The position numbers and the translations under genes are program-made. Of a DNA stretch of 64,000 nucleotides, positions 1 through 42,340 are shown in pieces (position 1 is the first letter of the stretch; each line of letters begins with the position of its first letter). Below the pieces are notes generated by a model, which worked only from the letters and a program-made list of their open reading frames with translations, had not been told where the DNA came from and did not search any database. The DNA comes from Moniliophthora roreri (Eukaryota > Basidiomycota > Agaricomycetes > Agaricales > Marasmiaceae), in assembly GCA_001466705.2 (NCBI GenBank), contig LATX02000207.1:404551-468550 (forward strand), in the 5' to 3' direction.

Positions 1-968
1 TGATCCATTGATTTGTGCTGATGATTGTTTCCCCCTTGTTTGTAACTGGCATTAGATTGATTTCCGGAGTTCAGATGACGGTAGGTCTGATTGCCGGAGG
101 ATTGATTTCCTCCATGAGGTCGAAAGGGACGATTGTTCCGCTTTCGAAAGGCTTGATAGCCTTAAGCAGGCCTAATACCAGTAATCTAGGAAATCAAAGC
201 CATGTTGGGAGAAAGATTCCTCCTACTCCATTCTCGTTGGATTGAGGAATAAAGGGTTGAAACAGCAAAGTCTTCCTTCTTCTCCGCAGTTACAAAGACT
301 TGAGATTTGAAGGTGTCCCATGAACCTGGGAGGGCCTTCATAAGGATCATTGAAATCATCCAATCAGCAATTTCAATTTGCTCTTCCTTCAATTTAACAA
401 GGCAGGTCTGAATTAGGTTGTAAGCATTGGTAGGATTCTGTCCTTCGCCAATGTGTACGGCAGTGAGGACAGAGAACCATTCGAAGATTTCAGCAAGGTT
501 AAACTTATCATATTCAGCGATCAATGCATCCCATGTAAGTTTAGCAGTTTCCTTGATGAAGTGTTGGAGTAATGGACCTAATTTCATTTTGAAAAGACCC
601 ATGCACTTGTTATTGTATTCGTTCCAGGAAGCAAGTTTGTCCTTGTCTTTCTTGTCTTCATCAGAAAGTTTTTTCTGAGTAAGACCTTCTACTACATTTT
701 GTAATTCGCAGTAGCCTAAGAAGAGACATTTGAACTCTTTAAACTTGTTCCTTTCTCCATCAAAGATGGGAACAGAAGAAAGGCTAGACATTCCAGAGCC
801 AGCACCAGCATTCATGATTGCAACAGTGCTCCTGCCACTAGTGTAGACAGAGAGCTTGATAGAATCTTCAATGTGGGCATGAACATTAGATCCCGCGTCC
901 AAAAGGACAGGGTTGGTAATGTTAACATTGATTGGTTGATCCTGAGAACGAGTTCAAGGTTGAGACAT
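1..968 (-). pseudogene. Ty1/copia Gag, copy A (partial, runs off left edge)
   Basis: The copia Gag (UBN2-type capsid domain) binds element RNA and builds the cytoplasmic particle. The capsid region is read from about 902 down to 186, with motifs such as FDGERNKFKEFKCL and the helical segment around SWNEYNNKCMGLFKMK. The original start is the ATG at 966-968, aligned with the intact start of copy B at 10817. Here codon 5 is TGA (954-956) where copy B has CGA, and further stops lie near 183 and 127. Sequence 1-1360 matches 9850-11211 throughout, so this is the 5' part of a second copia copy whose pol lies beyond the left edge. Family assignment is secure and the copy is dead. Confidence 0.85.
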
Positions 969-1360
969 TCTGTTATCGAAAGATCTAAATGGGCATCGTT
1001 AGCGAGTATTCATTTGCCAGAGGATGGATTCCGATTATGATCTCCGAAGGATAGAATGTAGGATATTATTCATCATAGTCATGTCTTGGTTGTCAATCCT
1101 TCTGTCATCTGGTCTCATCACCCAGACTGACGTTGTGTATCGTACGTTATTTACAAAATCTGATTGCCAAGAGAAAGTCTAAATAAAGCTTGTCTTAAAG
1201 ATTGATCAGATCAATCAACAAGTCTTTAAGTAAACGTTTAAATAACTTAGGGCAAATCAGGAGGCACTATTTACGTTAAAAATTTGTATGTAATTACATA
1301 AACAACTCCTTCCATAGATGAAGGCAACAAAGTTGTTTTATCTAGGTGCCAGTGTCCAGT
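969..1360 (-). other. copia copy A leader between LTR and gag
   Basis: About 390 bp of untranslated leader, matching 10818-11211 with scattered, mostly C/T and G/A differences. I see no coding sequence. A primer binding site should lie at its LTR end (about 1340-1360). The stretch complementary to a tRNA end could not be assigned with confidence. Confidence 0.55.
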
Positions 1361-1363
1361 TGT

Positions 1364-1405
1364 GAGACCCTCCAGCTCACTGGGTTGACTACCGGTTTAT
1401 TGCTG
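1364..1405. other. 42-bp block, unreversed complement of 11215-11256
   Basis: Flanks on both sides align directly with the other LTR (GTCCAGTTGT before, AGATGGGCTAAC after). Inside the block 40 of 42 bases are the Watson-Crick complement of 11215-11256 in the same left-to-right order. The two exceptions would be CpG/TpG differences if this copy is the original orientation. Confidence 0.9.
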
Positions 1406-1682
1406 AGATGGGCTAACCCATGTTCCAGTGAAGAAAATAAGGCCAACAGTTGACAACTGCGTGTCATGGAGGTAATTCTCCATGGGCGAGAAAAAAGGGT
1501 TGTATAGTACGATGTTAGGTGCCACTTTCAGGGCAACAATGGTGGTAGCAAAAGAGAGAGAGAGAGAAATTACCTCTACCTATCCACCAATCCACATCCG
1601 AGTCGCTAGAACAATAGTCATAGCCTTACTGCCAGTTAAGGCGTCGGCTACATTGCAAACCTCCAGCAAAGTCTTATAGGAG

Positions 1683-1707
1683 TTATAAGCCTTTGGCTAG
1701 AGTAGTG
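1683..1707. other. 25-bp block, unreversed complement of 11533-11557
   Basis: All 25 positions are the base-by-base complement of 11533-11557 read in the same direction. The flanks GTCTTATAGGAG and ATGATGACTGTTG are identical in both copies. Confidence 0.9.
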
Positions 1708-2370
1708 ATGATGACTGTTGTGAACAACGATCCCACATGCTAAAGCCTTCGGGGCTCATAACCTGTCGAAGAAGTGTGGGGCAAGAGGACGTCGAGCATA
1801 GCTCTTAGTCATTGCCAGCAGCATAGCAGCGCAGTGGTGTAATGTGTCTTCGACTCACATTGTTATATGGGGTGGTCTCTATATATGACTTGCTTGTTGC
1901 TTGTGACGATATGTAGAAGAGAGTAGATTCTCGAGGTACTTGAGAGTACAAGAGGGAGATCTGAGGAACTGAGCCTCATACAGGTGTCCTTATATACTGT
2001 TCTAGTATTTACTACTGTGGATGCCTAATCCTAATAGATCTATGTCTATCTACGGTGAACAATAAGTATCTAACTATAGATCTTATTGTTCTGTATGACT
2101 CAGACAATAAACTGCTGTGCCTGTAGTCTGAGTCTACCAGATATAGGCAGTACTCTAAAAGGCAGTCTCTGCACTTGGGCAGTCTGTGGCGCAGTACAAT
2201 AGAGTACTAAGAATAACTATCTTATTGTTCTCCTAGTTGACTCGAACTGAGTTGAACTGCTTCTAGGATCTTGAGATCTACGGACGCAGATATGTGTTTA
2301 CGATTGTGTGACAGTCATGTGATGACTTCTCACGTGATAATCCTGTGATGATTTCCACATCGTTTCAACA

Positions 2371-2382
2371 TGCCCCCATATC
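2371..2382 (-). promoter_or_regulatory. copia polypurine tract for plus-strand priming
   Basis: The minus strand reads AGATATGGGGGCA directly before the LTR start at 2370. This is the expected place and composition for the primer of second-strand synthesis in copy B. Confidence 0.7.
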
Positions 2383-2420
2383 TGTGACTGTATGTCAAAA
2401 GATATTGTCTAAGCATCAAA

Positions 2421-3171
2421 GGTGATGCCCAACTTTGCTCATAGGTATTCGAAAGTGGGATAGGCAAGGTTTTTTGTAAATATGTCAGCTATTTGGTCCT
2501 TTGTAGGAACATATCTGACATCTATCTCTCGGTGTTCTGTACATTCCCATATGTGGTGATAATGCATGTCAATGTGTTTTGATCGTTGCATTGTGACATC
2601 ATTGTCTGTGAGGAATATGGATCCTTGGTTGTCAAGGAGTAAAGGGAATTGATCAAGATTATAACCTATTTCTGAGAAAAGGTTCTTGATGCACCAAATT
2701 TTGTGAGCACAGTCTGAGGCTGCCATGTATTCCGCTTCAGTTGAGGATAAAGCTAAGGTTTTCTGTTTCATAGAAACCCAGCTAACAGGTCCTTCAGCAA
2801 ACTGAATGATATATCCTGCTTGCGATTTTCGCTTCCTTGTCGGATCTGAAGCCCATTCTGCATCTGAATATGCAATGAACCCTTTAGTGGTATTTCCTCT
2901 ATAAACGATAGAGTATCGGCGAGTTCCAAGCAAGTATTTCATAATGTACAGTGCTCGATCCAAATGTTCTTTAGATGGATTCGAAGAAAACTGTGACATT
3001 TTGATTACTGCAAAGCTAATGTTGGGCCTTGTGCCTAAACACAAATAGAGTAGTGATCTGATCACTGATTGGAATTTGGCTTTGATGTCTGGATCTGGAT
3101 CCAAGCTATTGTCTTTGGGTTTGTACCCGGTAGGTAATGGTGTTCGTGCAGTCTTGGCGTTGATAATTCTG
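2421..3171 (-). pseudogene. copia Pol RNase H domain (copy B)
   Basis: This is the C-terminal part of the copia polyprotein, which degrades RNA in the RNA-DNA hybrid. The open stretch 2439-3104 shows the RNase H core in order: YSDAEWASDPTRKRKSQAGY (first Asp), LSSTEAEYMAA (catalytic Glu), LLDNQGSIFL (second Asp) and the C-terminal KHIDMHYHHIWE and DIFTKNL motifs typical of Ty1/copia. It is followed closely by the polypurine tract and LTR, so the domain reaches the normal end of pol. It is separated from the RT block by a stop near 3174. Confidence 0.9.
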
Positions 3172-3176
3172 AATCG

Positions 3177-3851
3177 TCAGAGAATTTTCTCCAGATAATC
3201 ACATTGATCGATGGAGATTGTTCTCCGTTTTCGATCTCTGATGATTTTCATACGAAGGAATTCAGTTGGTTCACCTAAGTCTCTGCATTCCCATATAGCC
3301 ATAAATTCTGCTTTCTTCTTTTGTAGCAATGTACGATTTGAGCCCATGAATAATGCGTTGTCAACGTATATGATGACTAGGATGATGTCGTTTCCTTGTA
3401 TATATACGTAAACACCAGAGTCTGAAGAACATCGTGTGAAACTGAGTTTCTTCATGGATTGCTTACAGGCTTTCCACCAGGAACATGATGCCTGTTTCAA
3501 GCTGTATAAAGCGCGGTGTAGTTGCCAAACTTTGGTTTTGTCCTTTATGAAGCCTTCAGGTTGTTCCATGTAAATTTCTTTCTCTAATTCGCCATATAGA
3601 AATGCTGTTTTCACATCCAGCACTTCTATATTCCAATCTTCAATAGCTGCTAAGGCGAGTAGTAGTCTCACGGTATTGTACCAGACTACGGGAGAGAAGA
3701 CTTCATCATAATCTATTCCTTCAATTTGCGAAAAACCTTTCGCAACAAGTCTAGCCTTTTTGTGACCATTAGACTTGACATCAAAGACCCATCTGGATTT
3801 GATGGTTTTCCGACCATGAGGTAATGCTACTTCTTCAAAGACATGTCGCTG
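3177..3851 (-). pseudogene. copia Pol reverse transcriptase (copy B), catalytic motif altered
   Basis: The RVT_2-type reverse transcriptase has AFLYGELEKEIYMEQPEGF and the thumb motif LHRALYSLKQA. The catalytic box, normally YVDD, reads YVDN (GAC AAC near 3355-3366), so the second catalytic Asp is lost, consistent with a G-to-A change. The upstream part is recognisable in broken frames: FDVKSNGHKKARLVAKGF and then FSPVV between 3672 and 3851. It cannot be active as it stands. Confidence 0.88.
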
Positions 3852-4337
3852 TCATAATGAAGAGAGTTCTTCTTCGCATGCCTTTAACCATTCTACTTGT
3901 TCATTCTCAGAACGTGTTAGAATGTCTTTATAAGTCCATTCTCGGACATTATCAAAATTTGCGGCACATGTGAGAATTGAATCTAGTCGATGCCAAACTC
4001 CCCCTTTCTGTTCAACATGTGTAAGAAAATAGGACAGGTCGTCCGCAAGATTTTCAAATGTTTGAGCAGAAACTGAGACAGATTCAGTGGGAGTGTCGGT
4101 AGCTCTGCCATAAGAGCGTGTATTTTGTTGAATTTCAACTGGGTTATGAGTACCAAACGCACTTCTGTACTGATTAGGAATGTGAGAAGGTTGCATTGAG
4201 CGCCGGAGTTCAATCTGCTGATGTGGCACAGGTGCTGGAATTGGTACGTTATCGACTGATGTTTGATCATCAAGATCTCCATGATTAAGATCAGGTGCTG
4301 CAGAATGATCTTCAGGGTTTTCCTCTGGATTGGGTAA
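3852..4337 (-). pseudogene. copia Pol linker between integrase and RT
   Basis: A low-conservation hydrophilic segment rich in Ser, Thr, Gln and Asn, ending in a WLKACEEELSSL-like stretch that normally precedes copia RT. Two overlapping frames (3852-4229 and 3983-4474) are open, so a frameshift lies in this interval. I recognise no catalytic motif. Confidence 0.6.
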
Positions 4338-5160
4338 TTAATCAGCGTCCCGATTAGTAGTGAAGTGGTTGGTATCATGTTGTAAGGAAGATGGTAAAAG
4401 TATGTTGATGGCGCGTTTAACAAGCGATGATTCAATTGATGAGTTTTTGCACTTTGGAAAATCACTTTCGTCAAAAATAGCTGTGGACGAAGTGAAAGTT
4501 CTGCCTGTGTTCCTCATAAAGAGGTAAGCCTTGGAGCCAGGTGTGTATCTGATAAAGATCATTTTCTCCATTTTGGGTGCTAGTTTATGCGCTCGGAGTT
4601 CTTTATCAAGGTATACATAAGCGGTACAACCTGGAGTTTGGAAATAGGAAACATCTGGTTTCTTTCCGTCAAGGATTTCGGTAGGTGTTTTCCATAACAA
4701 GCGTTGGTTAGGAGTTCTATTATAGACATGAACAGCAATTTGGAACATATAAGTCCACCAGGCAGTAGGAAGACATGCTTTGAAACGGAATTTTTCTGAT
4801 TTCTCACGAATAACACCGTTAAAGTGCTCAATTCTACCAGCCTGTTGATGTTCATGTGGAGCAGAATACTGTATTTGTATTCCAGAATCCTTGAGATACC
4901 CCTGGAATAAGGTCCCAAAGAATTCTCCCCCATGATCAATATGCAGTGTTTTAATAAGCTTCCCAGCTTGTTTTTCTATTTGAGTTCAGAATATTTTGAA
5001 GGAAGCCAATGTTTCGAGTTGTGTTTTTGATTTTTGTAGAGTAGTCCAGCCAAAGCTGGAGTGGTCGTCAATGATTATTAATGCATATTTGTATTTTTCT
5101 GGGTATGAAACCACAAGGAATTCCACCAAATCCATATGGATTAGTTCTAGAACTTCTGAT
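4338..5160 (-). pseudogene. copia Pol integrase core (copy B), frameshifted
   Basis: The retroviral-type integrase joins element DNA to the chromosome. The C-terminal part of the core is clear at 4338-4748: YNRTPNQRLLWKTPTEIL followed by GCTAYVYLDKELRAHKL and MIFIRYTPGSKAY, all standard copia landmarks. The upstream catalytic region (4748-5160) is spread over frames with stops; an HEHQQAGRIEHFNGV-like reading appears only when frames are switched. Assignment is certain and the domain is broken. Confidence 0.85.
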
Positions 5161-5162
5161 GC

Positions 5163-5951
5163 TCATTTCGAGGAGTTTGGGTATGACCATTGCTTTATGC
5201 CCCCATAAGCGCATCCAGTGCAAGGGTGTTCAAACTTCAACGATTCTCTCATAGAAAAACCTTGGCAGGCATTGTGACATTTCTTGAGTACTAACTCAGG
5301 AATATGTCCAAAACGATTATGTGCAATGATAGGATCCACTGTTTTAGTAGTGGCGGTGGAAGCAAGAGACTGGAGAACATTGAGATGCTCAATGTGGGTC
5401 TCAAGGTATGTGAACTTGTTGAATAGGACAGGTCTCTTATTTCTGTCCTCGTAGTCCCCATTCTTCCATCGAATTGAGGTTTCTGGGTGAGAATATATAA
5501 TATCACAACCTCTCATTGTGAATTTGTTCCCGGCTAGTAATCGGAATGTGGATTTTGGATGATAGAATACTGGAGACAATTTGACTTGATGAATATCCTT
5601 ATTGGAGTTTTGATGTGAGATAATAACGGTTCCAGCTTTAGTGATAGTATCACCACCATTTACCCCTTGAATGTGTATAGGGTTTATCTCATGTAATTCA
5701 GAAAAATCTCCAATAAATGGACTTATGTGGTTGGTCACAGCAGAATCAAGAACCCAATATGCAGAGTTCAATTTCAAACTATTATTACTAGTACAATCAA
5801 CTGTAGTACAGAACGTATTGGTTGCACAGACATTGACAACACAATCTTCAATATTTTTAAGAAAAATATCGGTGTAAGAATTGTTCTGTTTGGTGTGATT
5901 AGTACTGAGAGGAATAATAGGGCCTTGACCATACCAATCATAATCGTCCAC
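5163..5951 (-). pseudogene. copia Pol protease and GAG-pre-integrase domains
   Basis: The aspartic protease site is WVLDSAVTNHI, where the family has LDSGATxHI. The Gly-Ala pair after the catalytic Asp-Ser has become Ala-Val, which probably inactivates it. Downstream, HNRFGHIPE and then HPCTGCAYGG make the His/Cys zinc-binding module of the GAG-pre-integrase domain. The first 338 bases of the frame are duplicated on the other side of the N at 6785, ending in a hybrid frame at 6743-7123 that is an artefact of the join. Confidence 0.85.
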
Positions 5952-6784
5952 CTTGTTTTGTTCATAATTGTATTGGTTTTCTTCTTCCCATCATGCAACT
6001 TCAGGAGGAGGAGTTGGAACGACAAGAGGATTGTAGAATGAGCTAATACAATTTTTGTTTCCAGTTATGAAAGTAACGTTATGTGGAGCATCATTCGGAT
6101 CCTCAGATTGTCATAAGACAAATTGTTTGTCTGAATGTTTCAACTTGACTGGTATTACTCCTGTTTGAAAGGTTGGCACGATTGTATATTCCGGATTTGA
6201 GTTATGAATTACAGTGCCTGTAATGTTGGATGACCCTTGTGGTGGTGGAACATGAAGTGGTTCTGGTGAAGTGGTAACTGGTACCATCGGAGGACCATCT
6301 ACCCAACTTGGCATTTGTGACCAAGTTTCGAGACAAGTCAGGGAACATGCTGACTCAGGGTGATGCATTCCATGCCATCCACAAGCTTGGAGGTCAGTCC
6401 ATGGTGTAGGGGCCATATTTGGCCATGTCAGTTCTGTTTGAGATAGACCAGTGCTATTTTCCAGAGTTTCAGGTGAAGGCAAAGTGGATCCTGAAGGACC
6501 CGGGTTATCAAAAAATTCATTGGATCTTGGTCCAATAGCTGTATCAATCAAAGATTGATCGACGATGTCTCTAGATTCCTTTAGGAATGTAGAGTCCAGA
6601 TCAGTTTCCATAACGGAACGTCCAGAGATCTCGCTAAAGAATTTTTGAGCCTCTTCACTTACTGGTTCAACATCAGAACAGTCGGTTTCAGAATGAGTAG
6701 TATTATGCCAGGAGCAGAAAGCTCTCAAGGTGCTGCTCTCACCTATTTTTCTCTTTTTAGGTGAAGGTGGATTTGTGACGGAGC
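5614..6784. repeat. 1171-bp exact duplication, left copy, ending at assembly N
   Basis: Identical in length and, where compared, base for base to 6786-7956, with a single N (6785) between. It starts TGTGAGATAATAACGG and ends GTGACGGAGC. It looks like two contig ends with an unmerged overlap rather than a real tandem duplication. Confidence 0.9.
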
Positions 6785-6785
6785 N

Positions 6786-7956
6786 TGTGAGATAATAACG
6801 GTTCCAGCTTTAGTGATAGTATCACCACCATTTACCCCTTGAATGTGTATAGGGTTTATCTCATGTAATTCAGAAAAATCTCCAATAAATGGACTTATGT
6901 GGTTGGTCACAGCAGAATCAAGAACCCAATATGCAGAGTTCAATTTCAAACTATTATTACTAGTACAATCAACTGTAGTACAGAACGTATTGGTTGCACA
7001 GACATTGACAACACAATCTTCAATATTTTTAAGAAAAATATCGGTGTAAGAATTGTTCTGTTTGGTGTGATTAGTACTGAGAGGAATAATAGGGCCTTGA
7101 CCATACCAATCATAATCGTCCACCTTGTTTTGTTCATAATTGTATTGGTTTTCTTCTTCCCATCATGCAACTTCAGGAGGAGGAGTTGGAACGACAAGAG
7201 GATTGTAGAATGAGCTAATACAATTTTTGTTTCCAGTTATGAAAGTAACGTTATGTGGAGCATCATTCGGATCCTCAGATTGTCATAAGACAAATTGTTT
7301 GTCTGAATGTTTCAACTTGACTGGTATTACTCCTGTTTGAAAGGTTGGCACGATTGTATATTCCGGATTTGAGTTATGAATTACAGTGCCTGTAATGTTG
7401 GATGACCCTTGTGGTGGTGGAACATGAAGTGGTTCTGGTGAAGTGGTAACTGGTACCATCGGAGGACCATCTACCCAACTTGGCATTTGTGACCAAGTTT
7501 CGAGACAAGTCAGGGAACATGCTGACTCAGGGTGATGCATTCCATGCCATCCACAAGCTTGGAGGTCAGTCCATGGTGTAGGGGCCATATTTGGCCATGT
7601 CAGTTCTGTTTGAGATAGACCAGTGCTATTTTCCAGAGTTTCAGGTGAAGGCAAAGTGGATCCTGAAGGACCCGGGTTATCAAAAAATTCATTGGATCTT
7701 GGTCCAATAGCTGTATCAATCAAAGATTGATCGACGATGTCTCTAGATTCCTTTAGGAATGTAGAGTCCAGATCAGTTTCCATAACGGAACGTCCAGAGA
7801 TCTCGCTAAAGAATTTTTGAGCCTCTTCACTTACTGGTTCAACATCAGAACAGTCGGTTTCAGAATGAGTAGTATTATGCCAGGAGCAGAAAGCTCTCAA
7901 GGTGCTGCTCTCACCTATTTTTCTCTTTTTAGGTGAAGGTGGATTTGTGACGGAGC
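6786..7956. repeat. 1171-bp exact duplication, right copy
   Basis: Second copy of 5614-6784. The true copia copy B probably has this interval only once, in which case all coordinates to its right are inflated by about 1.17 kb. Confidence 0.9.
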
Positions 7957-8250
7957 TGGCATAATAACCATCATCATTCTCGACTTGTTCTTCAATCCTT
8001 TTTCTCTTTTCAGCATGTTGCATCTTTACTACAGATCTTGGAGTGACATTTGGTGGAAGAGCATTTTGTCTCTTCGTAATATGTCCGGAGTGTACACACG
8101 CTCGCCAAGAAGTGAAGTGAGGTTTGGTGTCCTGTTGCCTTTGTGCAGCGCCTGGATAAAAGTACCTGATAGGCTTTTCTTTCTTAATGATATCAATATC
8201 TGCATTAAGAACAGGCTATTTCTTTGATTCACCAGGTTTTAATCCAGTTT
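7283..8250 (-). pseudogene. copia Gag C-terminal region with CCHC-like motif
   Basis: The open frame 7283-8023 (246 codons) begins with a basic segment, MQHAEKRKRIEEQ and SPKKRKIGESS, followed by CSWHNTTHSETDC, a zinc-knuckle-like C-x2-H-x4-H-x4-C signature. The rest is acidic and Pro/Ser-rich. The same frame, shortened, occurs at 6111-6728 in the duplicated segment. A basic stretch extends the same reading upstream to about 8250. I infer nucleic-acid binding and have no exact family match. Confidence 0.6.
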
Positions 8251-8398
8251 GATCCATGGTAATTCGAAAAGATTTTGTAGGGAAATCTTCGAAGTGTGGA
8301 ATATGCACTAGAGCAGTATGGCAGGGACTGTGACTTTTACTTTCTTCTGCCCATACATCAAGAGTGTGCGATTCCTTGCAAGTGGTGCAGTATAGAGC

Positions 8399-8815
8399 TC
8401 ATGAATCCAGGAAAGGCTTCGCTGGTTCGGGTAGCTCGGTATAGAATTCGGGGATTCTGTCTTTGTAGACGATAGTGAGGTCGACTGGATTTCCTATAAT
8501 AGGAAGTGGTACCAGTATTTCATCACCATCGTTGACCACTGTTTGACCTAGATAGTAAAGGCCTTGGCCATGATATTCGCCTTGACAGAGATGGTTGGAG
8601 CATATTGGGCAAGTAGAGAGGCATTTAGCTTCTGGGTGACGATGCAGTTCCATGAGGATGAGTTCATCAGTCATGAAAGGTTCGTCAATACCCAAGACAT
8701 GAAGCAATGCATCAACTAGTTGAGGAATCTCGTTAAAGAAATATTCTGGTGGAGTGCAATATGTCCAGTATCTAGCACCATCTGATTTTTCCCATAATAC
8801 TGCATAAACACCCAT
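8399..8815 (-). CDS. copia internal ORF, unrecognised, Cys/His-rich centre
   Basis: 138 codons between the acidic Gag extension and the 7283-8250 region of copy B. It contains CLSTCPICSNHLCQGEYHG, a Cys/His cluster that could bind zinc, flanked by hydrophobic segments. I do not recognise the family. Its position inside the gag-to-protease interval suggests it is part of a very long Gag polyprotein, separated by a stop near 8817. It may be only a fragment. Confidence 0.45.
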   Translation of the reverse strand: MGVYAVLWEKSDGARYWTYCTPPEYFFNEIPQLVDALLHVLGIDEPFMTDELILMELHRHPEAKCLSTCPICSNHLCQGEYHGQGLYYLGQTVVNDGDEILVPLPIIGNPVDLTIVYKDRIPEFYTELPEPAKPFLDS

Positions 8816-8899
8816 GCCTAGGTATTGTGACCATGGTTTGATTTTGTGCTTGCACAGTTCACATTGGTTTGAGCATAAAGCAAAGATGCTTTGATGAGG

Positions 8900-10045
8900 T
8901 CATAGATGACCATAAACCATAGGTTTGCGAACAGCTAGGTACATTATTTCAAGATAGGTTTGAATGCATGGTTTGTCCAATAATCCTTCTTGTTTAGCTC
9001 TGTTGATGATATATTGCATCTTAATCATTCCCAATGTGACAAATTTGTCAAGGAATTGTGCAAGAAATTCATCAAGAGAGTTTATCCAGGTAAACAATGG
9101 ATTCGGTACGATGATGTGTGGAGTGGAATGTGTCAGAGGAATCGAATAATGTCCTCTTAGAGCATGAAGGTTAAAGTTATTTGGAACAGAGGGGTCTGGG
9201 AAGCTAGGTACCAAAGTGATTGGTCCTGATCCACAGTAGACTTTTGTTTCCAAATGTGAAGGAGGATTCGACTGAGGGAAGTAACTTGTCAAATTCATTG
9301 GTAGAGTGATCGCTTCTACTAGTTCAGGAGGAGTATTTTCTTTATCCTCATCTCCTTGTGGTACAGTATAGAAGGATTCATCAGATGATTCGAGTTCATC
9401 ATCTTCATCATCTGTGTCTTCTTCACCTAATGATTCCTCATCGTTGTTATTGCCAGTAATTGAGGAAGATAATCTATCATCAGAATGGAATGGGTCTTCA
9501 ACCTCTTGTTCAGAGATTAGTTCCCCATCATCTGTTTTGTATGCAATAGATTGTTGACGTAGTGGAGCTGAGGAGCGTCTGCCAGATGCAAGTGATAGAG
9601 TCTCGACATGAGGCATGTCTTCTTCTTCTGAAGTTTGTGAGTATTGATCAGAATACTCTACTTGAGCCTCCATTTCAGAGTCCTCAGCTTCGTCACTAGT
9701 TCCCCCTTCTTCATCAATTGCTGTGGCAAAAGCCATGTTAATGGCTTCTTCTCCTTCATCAAAGGCAGCAACAAAGGTATTTTGCTTTTTGCCTTTGTAG
9801 CTCTTCTTCGTTTGATTAGATTTTTGATTGCTTGACTTCTTTTTCTGATCCGTTGATTTATGCTGTGAACTGTTTCCCCCTTGTTTGTAACCAGCACTAG
9901 ATTGATTTCCAGAGTTCGGATGACGGTAGGTCTGATTGCCAGAGGATTGATTTCCTCCATGGGGTCGAAAGGGACGATTGTTCCACTTTTGAAAGGCTTG
10001 ATAGCCTTGGGCAGGCCTAATACCAGTAATCCGAGAAATCAAAGC
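8900..10045 (-). pseudogene. copia Gag, nucleocapsid-like and acidic extension
   Basis: Continues the Gag frame after the capsid. It starts with an Asn/Gly/Gln/Arg-rich segment (GGNQSSGNQTYRHPNSG), then a Lys-rich tract (KKSYKGKKQ), then about 150 residues dominated by Asp, Glu and Ser (for example EEDTDDEDDELESSDESF), then a more ordinary C-terminal domain. The acidic spacer between Gag core and protease is far longer than in typical copia elements. Function unknown; RNA binding by the N-terminal part is inferred from composition. Confidence 0.65.
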
Positions 10046-10078
10046 TGTGTTAGGAGAAAGATTCCTCCTGCTCCATTC

Positions 10079-10817
10079 TCATTGGATTGAGGAATAAAGG
10101 GTTGAAACTGCAAAGTCTTCTTTCTTTTCTGCGGTTACGAAGACTTGTGATTTGAAGGTATCCCAGGAACCTGGGAGAGCCTTCATAAGGATCATTGAAA
10201 TCATCCAATCAGCAATCTCAATTTGCTCTTCCTTCAATTTAACAAGGCAGGTCTGAATTAGGTTGTAAGTGTCAGTAGGATTCTGTCCTTCGCCAATGTG
10301 TATGGCAGTGAGGACAGAGAACCATTCGAAAATTTCAGCAAGGTTAAACTTATCATATTCAGCGATCAACACATCTCATGTAAGTTTAGCTGTTTCTTTC
10401 CTTGATGAAATGTTGAAGAAGTGGACCTAATTTCATTTTGAAAAGACCCATGCACTTGTTATTGTACTCGTTCCAGGAAGCAAGTTTGTCCTTGTCTTTC
10501 TTATCTTCATCAGAAAGTTTCTTCTGAGTGAGACCTTCTACTACATTTTGTAATTCGCAGTAGCCTAAGAAAAGACATTTGAACTCTTTAAACTTGTTCC
10601 TTTCTCCATCAAAGATGGGAACAGAAGAAAGGCTAGACATTCCAGATCCAGCACCAGCATTCATGATTGCAACAGTGCTCCTGCCACTAGTGTAGACAGG
10701 GAGCTTGATAGAATCTTCAATGTGGGCATGAACATTAGAACCTGCGTCCAAAAGGACAGGGTTGTTAACGTTAACATTGACTGGTTGATCCTGAGAATGG
10801 GTTCGAGGTTGAGACAT
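10079..10817 (-). pseudogene. copia Gag capsid domain, copy B (frameshift and stop)
   Basis: Starts at ATG 10817 (MSQPRTHSQDQPVNV) and follows the same UBN2-like capsid as copy A. Compared with copy A it has an extra TTTC near 10397-10404 that shifts the frame, and TGG changed to TGA in the KLTWDA motif just after. The frame is therefore split into 10386-10817 and 10079-10372. Both lesions are absent from copy A at the same place, so each copy decayed separately. Confidence 0.88.
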
Positions 10818-11211
10818 TCTGTTATCGAAAAGATCTAAACGGGCATCGTTAGCAAGTATTCATTTGCCAGAGGATGGATTCCGATTATGATCTCTGAAGG
10901 ATAGAATGTAGGATGTTATTCATCATAGTCATGTCTCAGTTGTCGATCCTTCTGTCATCTGGTCTCATCACCCAGACTGACATTATGTATTGTATGTTAT
11001 TTACAAAATCTGATTGCCAAGAGAAAGTTTAAGTAAAGCTTGTTTTAAAGATTGATCAGATCAATCAACAAGTCTTTAAATAAACATTTAAATGACTTAG
11101 GGCAAATCAGGGGGCACTATTTACATTTTAAAAGTTATACATAATTATATAAACAACTTCTTCCATAGATGAAGGCAACAAAGTTGTTTTATCTAGGTGC
11201 TAGTGTCCAGT
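10818..11211 (-). other. copia copy B leader
   Basis: Untranslated leader between the 5' LTR and gag of copy B, colinear with 969-1360. No gene seen. Confidence 0.55.
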
Positions 11212-11214
11212 TGT

Positions 11215-11256
11215 CTCTGGGAGGTCGAGTGGCCCAACTGATGACCAAATAACGAC
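11215..11256. other. 42-bp block, unreversed complement of 1364-1405
   Basis: Partner of 1364-1405. If this copy is complemented back, its two differences from copy A become CG versus TG, which is the prevailing decay pattern in the window. If copy A is complemented instead, they fall outside CpG. That points to this copy as the altered one. Confidence 0.85.
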
Positions 11257-11532
11257 AGATGGGCTAACCTATGTTCCAGTGAGGGAAATAAGGCCAACAG
11301 TTGACGACTGCGCATCATGGAGGTAATTCTCCATAGGCAGGAAAAAGGTTTGTATAGTACGATGTTAGATGCCGCTTTCAGGGAAACAATGGTGGTAGCA
11401 AAAGAGAGAGTGTGTGTGATTACCTCTACCCATCCACCAATCCACATCCGAGTCGCTAGAACAATGGTCATGGCCTTACTGCCAGTTAAGGCGTCAGCTA
11501 CGTTGCAAACCTCCAGCAAAGTCTTATAGGAG

Positions 11533-11557
11533 AATATTCGGAAACCGATCTCATCAC
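11533..11557. other. 25-bp block, unreversed complement of 1683-1707
   Basis: Exact base-by-base complement of the homologous positions in the other LTR, without reversal, bounded by identical flanks. Confidence 0.9.
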
Positions 11558-12252
11558 ATGATGACTGTTGTGAACAACGATCCCACACACTAAAGCCTTC
11601 GGGGCCCATAACCTGTCAAAGTTGTATGGGGCAAGAGGACGTTGAGCAAAGCTCTTAGTCGTTGCCAGCAGCATAGCAGCGCAGTGGCATAATGTGTCTT
11701 CGACTCACATTGTTATATGGGGTGGTCCCTATATATGACTTGCTTGTTGCTTGTGACAATATGTAGAAGAGAGTAGATTCGAGGTACTTGAAAGTAGCTA
11801 AATACAAGAGGGAGAGGAACTGAGGAACTGAGCCTCATACAGGTGTCCTTATATACTGTTCTAGTATTTACTACTGTGGACACCTAATCCTAATAGATCT
11901 ATGTCTATCTATGGTGAACAATAAGTATCTAACTATAGATCTTATTGTTCTGTATGACTCAGACAATAAACTGCTGTGCCTGTAGTCTGAGTCTACCAGA
12001 TATAGGCAGTACTCTAAAAGGCAGTCTCTGCACTTGGGCAGTCTGTGGCGCAGTACAATAGAGTACTAAGAATAACTATCTTATTGTTCTAAGTATAGCT
12101 TCTCTATTGTTCTCCTAGTTGACTCGAACTGAGTTGAACTGCTTCTAGGATCTTGAGATCTACGGATGCAGATATGTGTTTACAATTGTGTGACAGTCAT
12201 GTGATGACTTCTCACATGATAATCATGTGATGATTTCCACATCGTTTCAACA

Positions 12253-29840: not shown

Positions 29841-30395
29841 TGTTACAGACTTTCTTATTAGACGCTTTTCTTCTTTTCTTCTTTTCTTTTTACTACTATT
29901 TTGGGCAAGTTAGCGCCCAACATTATGTTTCTCTTTAACATCTGGACTCGTCCACATTCCCAGTTCCCTTTTTCAGTATTTACAACGTCATCATGATTTC
30001 ACTTTATTCCATTAGTTTCTATCTCCTTCCGATGACATCGCCTATGATGTCAAATCATTTATTTATAACTTCGTCGACATTCTACCATATTCCATTGCTT
30101 TCTACTTGTTTGACAAACAACGATGTTGATCTCGCATTTGTATCCAAACAAGTAACTACAAAGGATGTATAAGTAGATAGTTCTCTGGGTCTGAGCTCTC
30201 CAGCTTGACCTAGTTTAATCAAACTTGTGTCTAGTCAACGAACGAACTTCTGAACTTTAGCTTTTCTAAAGCTAACTCTCAAACTTGAACTTTACTCCTT
30301 CAAGAAGGAAACCTTCCTTTCTTGTCGAAGTTAACTCCGCATCACTTAGTCAAGTGGTGTTGAGTAGTTGTCGTTGCTGCGCAAGTAACGTAACA
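29841..30395 (+). repeat. G4-family LTR, 555 bp, apparently solo
   Basis: Starts TGTTACAGAC, ends AACGTAACA, flanked by TACAC on both sides. It is identical by eye to the G4 3' LTR at 39229-39783, and the identity continues past the LTR to 32496. It is therefore either a solo LTR from another haplotype or a duplicate of the 39229 copy created at the N at 32497. Confidence 0.85.
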
Positions 30396-32496
30396 TACAC
30401 TATATACATAAAGACGATGAGTTCGACGTTTTATGTAATAATTCCCGAGCCTGTTGGGATATGAGTCATATGAGTACAAAGGGACGAGTGAAAGGGGAAA
30501 GGGAAATAGTGTATGAGTCTGATAGAAGAAGAAGCATGTGAAGAGAGGAAGAAGGGGGCTGGGAAGGTGTACTGGTCCGATGAGAAGAAGAAGCATGTAA
30601 AGAGAGGAAGAAGGGGGCTGGGAAGGTGTACTAGTCCGATGGAAAGAGAAGCATAGGGAAAAAGGAAGAAAAATTTAACAATAGCGGTTTTTGATAGTTC
30701 CATTGTTTAGATCTCGGTAATCCTGGCAGGGTCGTAGTGCTCCCACTTCTTTCTTGGCTACAAAGAAAAAAGGGAATGCCATTGGGGATTTTGAAGGTTG
30801 GATGTATCCTTTCCGTAAATTCTCGTCTAGGAACTTGTCTTGCTCAATCTGTTCTTTTGGTGATAAAGAGTAGATCTTGCAGTCTCGTGGTTTGAAATCT
30901 GGTTTGAGATTGATCGCGTGGTCATATGGTCAGGAGGGCGGGAACCGTTCGGCTTTCTTCTTTTCGAATCGATCCGAGTAGTCGGAAGAATATGGGGGAA
31001 GAAGTTCTTCTAATGGTTTCGCCTTGACCTTGTGAGCCTGTGCCAGTACCTGAGAAGTGGACAACTTAGAGTTGATTCAGATTTCATTACTGTCTTTCTC
31101 TCCTCTAATAAAAGATCGAATTAAGACTTCATCGTCTTCGACCTCGTCCAATATTCCGGTATCGAGTTTCTTGGTTTCATTGAAGATCCCAATAAATGGT
31201 TTCATTGGCCGTTTAACCATGATCTTTCACCTAGGTCGGAAATGGACTACTCCGGTGACCCAATCAATATCCGGATTGTGATCTTGAAGCCAGGGTAGTC
31301 CTAAAATGATCTGTTCAGGTCCAAGTCCTGAGATCAACAAAGTTTCTTTCATTGATCTATCTCCGATTGTTATGTCGACCGTAACGGAGTGTGTAATCCA
31401 ACCAATTTTGTTCCAGGTTCCATCAATGTTGAAAACTTTGATGGGTTTCTCTAATTTTGTCCAGGGTTTCTTGAGTTTTCATGCTTCCTCTTCACAGATG
31501 AAGCGCCCTCCAGCACCTGAATCTATCAGGGCTTTTGTTTCGACGATTTCTGTCCCGACATTGTATTGAATAGGAATTCGCATAGAGTTTTGATTTAACT
31601 TAGCTAATACAACATTCAAGATTGTGATAGCAGGTGGAAAGAGTGTCGGCCTCTTCCACCTCTTTAAAAACCCTCTTTTCCCATGAGATTAAAGATCTCT
31701 TTCTGTTCTCCTTCTCCTTGTTTGGCAATAAGCACTTGAATCTTGGTAAAAGCCTCTCGTGGTGAGAGCTTTTTGGGTTCGTATTTTGGCGGCGGGGTTT
31801 GTTGTGCTTGTCCTTTGGTGGGACAATCTCATGAGACGTGACTGGTCTTTGCACAATGGAAACACTTCCCTGCAACCATATAGTCCTTTCTGTCTGATTC
31901 GGACAACATTCGTCCGACTGTAACTTCCTTTTCTTTCCGAGCGATCTTTGGCTTGATCAGTTCTCTCTTCCTATTGGCCATGACCAATTTATACTGGTCG
32001 TCATATTTGATCACCAGTTTATACCAGTTGTCCAAAGTCTCGGGTTCTCCATCTGTTTGGAGCATGATCTTGTTCTGTAGGGACTCTGGGAGTCCTTCCC
32101 TAAAAAATTTCATAAGGGCCTCGTCATCGTATTTGGTGTCCATCGCGATGAGGCGGAATCGATTGACGTATTCATCAGCTCTATCCGTCATCTTGATCTG
32201 CTCGATCTTCGTCTGCGCTTCTCTGACAATGTTGACGGGTTGCCATTCGTTTCGGAATCTCTGTTTGAAACTACTCCAAGTTTCTTCGGCAGCTTTCTTC
32301 TTTTCTTCAGGGTCATCATCTTCGGAGAATAACTTCATCGTTTCTCTTTGCTTCCACTCTGTGGTATTTCCTTTAACCAGAGAGAGAAGAAGCATTTTCT
32401 TCTTTTCATCGGTGTTCGCTTTGACAGGGTTCATCGCGAAGTAAAGTTGAAGGTCGAGAAGGAAACGGCGGGTGTCTGATTGTTTTCCCAGAAAGG
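30396..32496 (-). repeat. duplicate of 39784-41884: G5 LTR end and G3 protease/RT/Gag
   Basis: Together with the preceding LTR this is a 2656-bp segment (29841-32496) matching 39229-41884 at a constant offset of 9388. It holds the rest of the G5 LTR (to 30680), target copy ATAGC, the G3 pol 5' part, the GGGTTTT site at 31667-31673 and part of G3 Gag (31829-32434). The frames here repeat those described at 40069-42260. It ends at the N at 32497. Confidence 0.9.
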
Positions 32497-39228: not shown

Positions 39229-39783
39229 TGTTACAGACTTTCTTATTAGACGCTTTTCTTCTTTTCTTCTTTTCTTTTTACTACTATTTTGGGCAAGTTA
39301 GCGCCCAACATTATGTTTCTCTTTAACATCTGGACTCGTCCACATTCCCAGTTCCCTTTTTCAGTATTTACAACGTCATCATGATTTCACTTTATTCCAT
39401 TAGTTTCTATCTCCTTCCGATGACATCGCCTATGATGTCAAATCATTTATTTATAACTTCGTCGACATTCTACCATATTCCATTGCTTTCTACTTGTTTG
39501 ACAAACAACGATGTTGATCTCGCATTTGTATCCAAACAAGTAACTACAAAGGATGTATAAGTAGATAGTTCTCTGGGTCTGAGCTCTCCAGCTTGACCTA
39601 GTTTAATCAAACTTGTGTCTAGTCAACGAACGAACTTCTGAACTTTAGCTTTTCTAAAGCTAACTCTCAAACTTGAACTTTACTCCTTCAAGAAGGAAAC
39701 CTTCCTTTCTTGTCGAAGTTAACTCCGCATCACTTAGTCAAGTGGTGTTGAGTAGTTGTCGTTGCTGCGCAAGTAACGTAACA
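39229..39783 (+). repeat. G4 3' LTR
   Basis: 555 bp, TGTTACAGAC...AACGTAACA, followed by the target duplication TACAC. Confidence 0.93.
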
Positions 39784-40068
39784 TACACTATATACATAAA
39801 GACGATGAGTTCGACGTTTTATGTAATAATTCCCGAGCCTGTTGGGATATGAGTCATATGAGTACAAAGGGACGAGTGAAAGGGGAAAGGGAAATAGTGT
39901 ATGAGTCTGATAGAAGAAGAAGCATGTGAAGAGAGGAAGAAGGGGGCTGGGAAGGTGTACTGGTCCGATGAGAAGAAGAAGCATGTAAAGAGAGGAAGAA
40001 GGGGGCTGGGAAGGTGTACTAGTCCGATGGAAAGAGAAGCATAGGGAAAAAGGAAGAAAAATTTAACA
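39784..40068 (-). repeat. G5 5' LTR, remaining part
   Basis: TACAC target copy plus the last 280 bp of the G5 LTR interrupted by G4, including the 59-bp tandem repeat. Followed by ATAGC, the G5 target duplication, at 40069-40073. Confidence 0.9.
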
Positions 40069-41061
40069 ATAGCGGTTTTTGATAGTTCCATTGTTTAGAT
40101 CTCGGTAATCCTGGCAGGGTCGTAGTGCTCCCACTTCTTTCTTGGCTACAAAGAAAAAAGGGAATGCCATTGGGGATTTTGAAGGTTGGATGTATCCTTT
40201 CCGTAAATTCTCGTCTAGGAACTTGTCTTGCTCAATCTGTTCTTTTGGTGATAAAGAGTAGATCTTGCAGTCTCGTGGTTTGAAATCTGGTTTGAGATTG
40301 ATCGCGTGGTCATATGGTCAGGAGGGCGGGAACCGTTCGGCTTTCTTCTTTTCGAATCGATCCGAGTAGTCGGAAGAATATGGGGGAAGAAGTTCTTCTA
40401 ATGGTTTCGCCTTGACCTTGTGAGCCTGTGCCAGTACCTGAGAAGTGGACAACTTAGAGTTGATTCAGATTTCATTACTGTCTTTCTCTCCTCTAATAAA
40501 AGATCGAATTAAGACTTCATCGTCTTCGACCTCGTCCAATATTCCGGTATCGAGTTTCTTGGTTTCATTGAAGATCCCAATAAATGGTTTCATTGGCCGT
40601 TTAACCATGATCTTTCACCTAGGTCGGAAATGGACTACTCCGGTGACCCAATCAATATCCGGATTGTGATCTTGAAGCCAGGGTAGTCCTAAAATGATCT
40701 GTTCAGGTCCAAGTCCTGAGATCAACAAAGTTTCTTTCATTGATCTATCTCCGATTGTTATGTCGACCGTAACGGAGTGTGTAATCCAACCAATTTTGTT
40801 CCAGGTTCCATCAATGTTGAAAACTTTGATGGGTTTCTCTAATTTTGTCCAGGGTTTCTTGAGTTTTCATGCTTCCTCTTCACAGATGAAGCGCCCTCCA
40901 GCACCTGAATCTATCAGGGCTTTTGTTTCGACGATTTCTGTCCCGACATTGTATTGAATAGGAATTCGCATAGAGTTTTGATTTAACTTAGCTAATACAA
41001 CATTCAAGATTGTGATAGCAGGTGGAAAGAGTGTCGGCCTCTTCCACCTCTTTAAAAACCC
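40069..41061 (-). pseudogene. G3 Pol, upstream part: protease and RT N-terminus
   Basis: Continues into 22797 once G5 is removed. Motifs read in broken frames: the protease DSGAGGRFI region at about 40890-40920, ILGLPW at about 40690 and the RT leader FPPS-PYDHAIDL at about 40310-40340. Stops interrupt the frame often enough that no block exceeds 60 codons. The Gag-Pol heptamer GGGTTTT is at 41055-41061. Confidence 0.85.
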
Positions 41062-42340
41062 TCTTTTCCCATGAGATTAAAGATCTCTTTCTGTTCTCCT
41101 TCTCCTTGTTTGGCAATAAGCACTTGAATCTTGGTAAAAGCCTCTCGTGGTGAGAGCTTTTTGGGTTCGTATTTTGGCGGCGGGGTTTGTTGTGCTTGTC
41201 CTTTGGTGGGACAATCTCATGAGACGTGACTGGTCTTTGCACAATGGAAACACTTCCCTGCAACCATATAGTCCTTTCTGTCTGATTCGGACAACATTCG
41301 TCCGACTGTAACTTCCTTTTCTTTCCGAGCGATCTTTGGCTTGATCAGTTCTCTCTTCCTATTGGCCATGACCAATTTATACTGGTCGTCATATTTGATC
41401 ACCAGTTTATACCAGTTGTCCAAAGTCTCGGGTTCTCCATCTGTTTGGAGCATGATCTTGTTCTGTAGGGACTCTGGGAGTCCTTCCCTAAAAAATTTCA
41501 TAAGGGCCTCGTCATCGTATTTGGTGTCCATCGCGATGAGGCGGAATCGATTGACGTATTCATCAGCTCTATCCGTCATCTTGATCTGCTCGATCTTCGT
41601 CTGCGCTTCTCTGACAATGTTGACGGGTTGCCATTCGTTTCGGAATCTCTGTTTGAAACTACTCCAAGTTTCTTCGGCAGCTTTCTTCTTTTCTTCAGGG
41701 TCATCATCTTCGGAGAATAACTTCATCGTTTCTCTTTGCTTCCACTCTGTGGTATTTCCTTTAACCAGAGAGAGAAGAAGCATTTTCTTCTTTTCATCGG
41801 TGTTCGCTTTGACAGGGTTCATCGCGAAGTAAAGTTGAAGGTCGAGAAGGAAACGGCGGGTGTCTGATTGTTTTCCCAGAAAGGGGTCCAGAGTTGGTCC
41901 CTTGCTGGCTTCGTCCTTCTTGTCATCGATTGTCTGGAGTACAGCCGTGGAAATAGTCTGGGCCCATTGTTTGTCGGTGTTGTCATGTTCAATCTTTGGT
42001 TGGACGTCTGAAGCAGCAGCAGTGCTTCCAGCTGGAGTTGTCATTTCTGGGGTCGGGGTATGGAATATATTTCGGTATTCGTCAAATGGATCGGGTTTGG
42101 AAGACTTAGCTCTGGGTTCTGTTCTTTCTTGTTGGAGACTTTCAACTGCTCCTCTCCGCTGGCTACGAGTAATTTGGCATGGGGTTCGTTTGGGATTGGG
42201 GTTCAGCAGCTGTTCGGCTACTTCAAGTTGATTGTCGAGATCGGATTCTTCGGCTGCCATAAAGGGAGCCCTTGGGGGAGTTGTGTTTCAGTAAGTGGTG
42301 GTGCCTGAACCTGGGTAGGTCGGCAACGATCAGCTTGACC
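41052..42340 (-). pseudogene. G3 Gag
   Basis: The long open block 41217-42260 (347 codons) spans AAEESDLDNQLEVAEQLLN, FLLDLQLYFAMNPVKANTDE and the knuckle CFHCAKTSHVS, which is cut by TGA in place of the Arg codon of G4 (HVSRDC). The apparent ATG at 42260 is itself a C-to-T change of an ACG codon seen in G2 and G4. It therefore does not mark the ancestral start, which lies upstream near LPTYPG. Capsid and nucleocapsid roles are inferred from family. Confidence 0.85.

Follow-up and report, generated by a model that had tools for sequence, protein, structure and literature searches.

In the window analyzed here (the whole stretch of DNA, 64,000 nucleotides, C106:404551-468550), a short segment of one retroelement copy reads as the complement of its homologue in the same 5' to 3' order. 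This locus raises the question of whether such a segment belongs to the DNA of the organism or arose in the handling of its sequence. Base-by-base alignment agreed with the sequence-only reading of the locus: 40 of the 42 bases at 11215-11256 (block 1, copy B) are the same-order complement of 1364-1405 (copy A). The flanks of the two segments are collinear, with 88 bp at 91% identity and 90 bp at 90% identity. When the complemented window was compared with the window by BLAST, only two pairs were found at E <= 0.1: block 1 (E = 3.7e-12) and block 2 (11533-11557 with 1683-1707, complementary at 25 of 25 bases, E = 8.6e-6). The control, the window reversed without complementing, gave a single match to the window, with E = 0.026.

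Copy B is the altered copy and the A form is the ordinary one, as had been claimed. All six of the other copies in the genome that were aligned carry the A form at block 1. When the genome was searched by pattern with up to 3 mismatches allowed, the B form was found at one place (C106:415765-415806) against 45 places for the A form, which served as the backwards-read control. The search with the A-form pattern listed 24 places, and its own backwards control 1. These counts rule out, at block 1, an inherited variant shared by more than one copy. Once complemented, block 1 is identical at all 42 bases to a third copy (L002), so the two mismatches to copy A are CpG transitions that predate the change. 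Two further claims are thereby borne out, namely that the mismatches become CG/TG differences only if copy B was altered and that the change was superimposed on ordinary divergence.

The host of block 1 appears to be a minus-strand copia-type LTR element, with the following predicted layout:

11215-11256, unstranded: block 1, a 42-bp unreversed complement located in the 5' leader of element B (copia-type)
1364-1405, unstranded: segment of copy A corresponding to block 1, unaltered
11533-11557, unstranded: block 2, a 25-bp unreversed complement located in the leader, with the putative primer-binding site about 43 bases upstream of it
1683-1707, unstranded: segment of copy A corresponding to block 2, unaltered
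5420-5452, unstranded: block 3, a 33-bp unreversed complement within the minus-strand reading frame 5163-5951
5166-5951, minus strand: reading frame containing block 3, with Pfam domain Pol_BBD (copia-type pol) by domain scan
1764-2370, minus strand: LTR adjoining copy A, which begins TGTTGAAACG and ends ACA on the minus strand
11614-12252, minus strand: 5' LTR of element B, with ends as in 1764-2370
11601-11613, minus strand: putative primer-binding site GGTTATGGGCCCC, immediately 3' of the LTR

Judged by this layout, the untranslated leader would hold blocks 1 and 2, and pol would hold block 3. The earlier placement of block 1 inside a copia LTR is thus corrected: the LTRs are 1764-2370 and 11614-12252, both with TG...CA-type ends (TGTT at the start and ACA at the finish on the minus strand). 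Among extra copies of the LTR part alone, eight of nine start at 1762-1775 and one at 1961. The motif GGTTATGGGCCCC is putatively complementary to the anticodon arm of initiator tRNA-Met, the arrangement of copia half-tRNA priming. Pol_BBD (E 4.6e-7) was found in one of the four element frames scanned, and the other three were without domains. Blocks 2 and 3 had been overlooked in the earlier reading of this element. Block 3 matches its relative as a same-order complement at 33 of 33 bases, and the other form at 5420-5452 is carried by L040 (the same place as L018), L042, and L043.

Within positions 1-12252 of the window, the LTR 1764-2370 appears to be shared by the two copia-type copies or to be where they abut. 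A further LTR copy is located at C106:390153-390782, and the order is possibly LTR-internal-LTR-internal-LTR. A (GA)n tract at 1560-1569 in copy A corresponds to (GT)n at 11410-11419 in copy B; this looks like a microsatellite change and not a block.

Small inversions and template-switch mutations resemble the blocks in being short and length-preserving between collinear flanks, whereas they yield the reverse complement. The segments found here are the same-order complement (40/42, 25/25, and 33/33 for blocks 1, 2, and 3), and a small inversion was therefore rejected, in line with the earlier argument that neither process can give such a block. The 'complement repeats' counted by REPuter in plastomes are tallied regardless of homologous position. 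They show the identical letter relation, whereas each block here takes the place of its own homologue.

The genome comprises 59,427,881 bases in 154 contigs. Complement runs of at least 10 bp between collinear flanks were sought by a detector in 50 loci, window included, which total 336,757 bases (279,007 non-redundant). Blocks are detectable only where a close relative exists, i.e., in repeats, and the testable part of the survey, repeats for which the set includes a relative at 85% identity or more, amounted to 175,329 bases. The detector reported 128 pairs and 61 intervals, and all those listed trace to six altered places of 25-45 bp, each altered in one copy only:

window 11215-11256: 42 bp
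window 11533-11557: 25 bp
window 5420-5452: 33 bp
C45:806945-806978: 34 bp
C93:490353-490397: 45 bp
C15:19995-20026: 32 bp

The sample is biased upwards: the window was chosen for its block, and L039 was fetched after a block had been seen in L036, which is the same place. None of the altered copies shares its alteration with any relative available for comparison (3 to 34 aligned stretches). The shortest interval listed was 23 bp, and no further complement intervals were found in the 50 loci when the minimum was lowered to 8 bp. The block on C45 is apparently part of the coding sequence of a related family, where the frame CTT TTT, read by eye, runs in the altered letters into TGA. The three blocks of the window all fall within its first 12,252 bases, and the other 25,104 testable bases yielded none.

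Three queries were searched, as unreversed complements, against the whole genome: two taken from a second family, which matches window positions 1097-1478 at about 80%, and one from a gypsy-type stretch; these searches returned coordinates only. The first second-family query (1,730 bases) found four places: C93 and C45 again, and the new 55-bp places C90:2444-2498 and C111:19364-19418. The second (1,199 bases) found C110:2092747-2092821 and C108:419681-419732. The gypsy-type query (2,322 bases) found C16:27999-28046 (90%) and C118:342689-342740 (87%), both by coordinates only. The strand of the C16 match is the expected one, and the match falls within about 6-12 bases of where collinearity would place it. 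Sensitivity of these searches was limited, because the known C15 block was not returned by the 1,730-base query, nor was block 1 by the 1,199-base query, though that query holds its counterpart at about 90%.

The genome searches thus added six places: three with both flanks (one of them beside a deletion), one with one flank, and two by coordinates only. Both flanks are collinear for the C111 block (55 bp) and the C110 block (99 bp). At C108:419681-419732 the right flank aligns and the left does not. The 55-bp C90 block was found by direct display and was absent from the detector list; the left flank of C90:2444-2498 matches for 17 bases only and is followed by a deletion of about 90 bases. 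Seen from locus L054 (C90:2141-2800, at about 288), this deletion of about 90 bases is located about 15 bases left of the complemented block.

Altogether, blocks were found in contigs C106, C45, C93, C15, C90, C111, and C110, with a one-flank place in C108 and coordinates-only places in C16 and C118. The affected families are two copia-type ones and, by coordinates only, one gypsy-type. Biology specific to retroelements was considered and rejected: all three window blocks lie within the first 12,252 bases, but the gypsy-type query gave two more places, by coordinates only. A scan of repeats for complement without reversal had been proposed by the sequence-only reading. It was realized in part: the 50 loci yielded six blocks, and the genome, searched with chosen queries only, six more places. 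The version carried by other copies of the repeat, also asked about, is the A form, as the counts above demonstrate. The nine both-flank blocks measure 25, 32, 33, 34, 42, 45, 55, 55, and 99 bp. Short segments of single repeat copies (25-99 bp in these nine blocks) have been swapped in place for their base-by-base complement.

Chance similarity or a simple-repeat effect has a negligible probability: chance complement matches do occur (23-25 bp, 91-92% identity, E about 0.02-0.08), but it is refuted for the both-flank blocks by E-values, where a block was given one, of about 1e-5 to 1e-16 among the loci and window comparisons and 1e-8 to 1e-29 in the second-family genome searches, by their homologous position with collinear flanks, and by a detector with a 10-bp minimum that lists none below 23 bp.

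The change is specific in kind. In the 50 loci, the same detector found three transition-swap intervals, each of 9 bp, and none of at least 10 bp; no A-C/G-T-swap blocks were found. An additional test covered 721 gaps of equal length (12-400 bp) flanked by collinear ungapped matches. Among these, 106 intervals belonged to the complement class (14 were displayed and inspected), and none to the reverse (mirror), transition, or A-C/G-T classes. Four gaps were of the reverse-complement class, three of them pairing with their own locus and the fourth pairing L052 with L044. The latter is an 89-bp gap between collinear matches (L052 115-203, L044 1199-1287) and represents a palindrome or a small inversion.

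Seven of the nine both-flank blocks, once complemented, match at least one relative perfectly; the C90 block has 1 mismatch in 55 and the C110 block 3 in 99 (one CpG transition, one other transition, and one transversion). Since the complemented blocks match relatives perfectly or nearly so, they look as if they had evolved little after complementing. Six blocks compared with 31 hand-picked relatives differ at 30 sites, of which 23 are transitions, 9 of them CpG, in the unaltered orientation. A possible origin of the blocks by copying from a different repeat copy was also considered. The mean number of mismatches to relatives is lower in the block than in flank windows for eight of the nine and higher for C90, in a set where detection favours conserved blocks.

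Bacterial sequences were used as controls. A 1,200-base query from E. coli 16S, complemented without reversal, had no matches in 20,395 records, whereas the forward query matched 37,584 places. Likewise, the unreversed complement of 740 bases of E. coli IS1 had no matches, whereas the forward query matched 74,328 places (undercounted in 383 records). The 16S gene is under selection, and IS1 is the more neutral control. Together, these searches covered at most about 100 Mb, in which the rate found here (6 in about 175 kb, biased upwards) would predict blocks on the order of three thousand. They depend on an exact word of 28 bases, which a 25-bp block would escape, and the control records are finished bacterial genomes, compared with a draft eukaryote assembly here.

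Judged by the pattern, by how widely it is spread, and by the controls that lack it, the blocks are most probably not the DNA of the organism and were made in silico, in the assembly as analyzed, be it the deposited record or a later copy (probability roughly 0.93). Such a fault had been offered earlier as one of two options, and it is favoured by blocks that are scattered over many contigs as single copies, keep their length, and have sharp edges. A general fault would be expected to affect unique genes as well; detection here covered repeats with a close relative. The faulty step itself we infer as follows. An opposite-strand read is the reverse complement, and reversing it alone leaves exactly the unreversed complement. 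A patching step, such as short-gap filling, consensus correction, or contig merging, may have taken a segment from the opposite strand and reversed it without complementing. Reversal without complement is the correct strand rule for colour-space (SOLiD) or double-encoded data, and a step of this type would be a plausible source. No program with such a bug was reported in the literature search results, nor was any report of complement without reversal, as error or as process, found there.

Imperfect joining elsewhere in the assembly also counts for the in-silico fault. Positions 5614-6799 and 6786-7968 are 99.7% identical over about 1.17-1.2 kb and meet at a single N (6785), where two overlapping contig ends seem to have been left unmerged. 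The usual types of assembly error are collapses, inversions (reverse complement), and indels. Ordinary repeat errors (misjoins, unmerged ends, wrong gap fills) share with the present case the repeats, the single affected copies, and a gapped assembly with unmerged overlapping ends, whereas the blocks found here are complemented in place at exact length.

Two narrower explanations are sub-cases of the in-silico fault. The first, a possible but rather doubtful one, is that a SOLiD-assembled or gap-filled piece was decoded from a wrong (uncomplemented) anchor base between two colour positions. According to PMC4569514, a sequence and its complement share identical colours in colour space, which was also computed here; complementing thus leaves colours unchanged, and two colour changes bound the block. 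On this explanation each block should differ from the true sequence at two colours only. Indeed, six of the eight blocks tested differ in colour from the chosen relative at the two junctions only, and the other two have extra pairs of colour differences, from ordinary substitutions. However, in two of the eight, one junction colour change is unlike that of a pure complement, with the neighbouring base also differing. Moreover, independent colour errors should give three classes of letter swap, including transition-swap and A-C/G-T-swap blocks, and only complement blocks were found at 10 bp or more; random SOLiD colour errors were therefore rejected.

The second sub-case, which we regard as improbable, is a deliberate or accidental change made after assembly to the genome copy analyzed and not to the deposited record. 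The window agrees with the genome copy letter for letter over the 3,406 bases of L007, and the blocks occur on many contigs; these observations exclude an alteration of the window only, but not one of the whole copy. Against it, no other alteration was noticed in the analyzed copy.

Far less probable than either is a real process, i.e., parallel-strand copying or strand exchange that places a same-order complement, perhaps during retroelement reverse transcription. It is hardly credible that, in living cells, short segments at scattered single retroelement copies are exchanged for their complement with the 5' to 3' order kept. A same-order complement would need strands joined in the wrong polarity, and we know of no polymerase, recombinase, or other biochemical route that joins strands in this way. 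Parallel-primed PCR in vitro is claimed in PMC4304224. All blocks read are in LTR retroelement families, three of them in one element, but this bias is one of detection, because only repeats are testable. In addition, the altered form of block 1 was inherited by no other copy found (1 vs. 45), and no blocks were found in 16S and IS1 (at most about 100 Mb). The parallel-strand alternative of the sequence-only reading is thus unneeded for scattered, sharp-edged single copies that keep their length and are absent from these controls.

If the blocks are an assembly fault, they are silent errors, which keep sequence length and would therefore pass many checks. Where one falls in coding sequence, 8-33 codons would be replaced and stop codons could be introduced. 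Extrapolation from 6 in about 175 kb, an upward-biased sample, gives about 2,000 blocks per genome if unique sequence is affected too. Such blocks can be sought cheaply in any genome by comparing the assembly with its unreversed complement, a search that has very little background. Confirmation of the blocks by reads would mean a break with a basic rule of DNA replication.

Some other features were observed in the window. Positions 29841-32496 and 39229-41884 (2,656 bases) are 100% identical, and the first copy ends at an N (32497); this is a possible assembly duplication. The region 18282-51469 contains multiple nested or rearranged gypsy-type elements. Two frames scanned in this region encode reverse transcriptase (RT) with protease, and integrase with SH3_Tf2-1 and a chromodomain.
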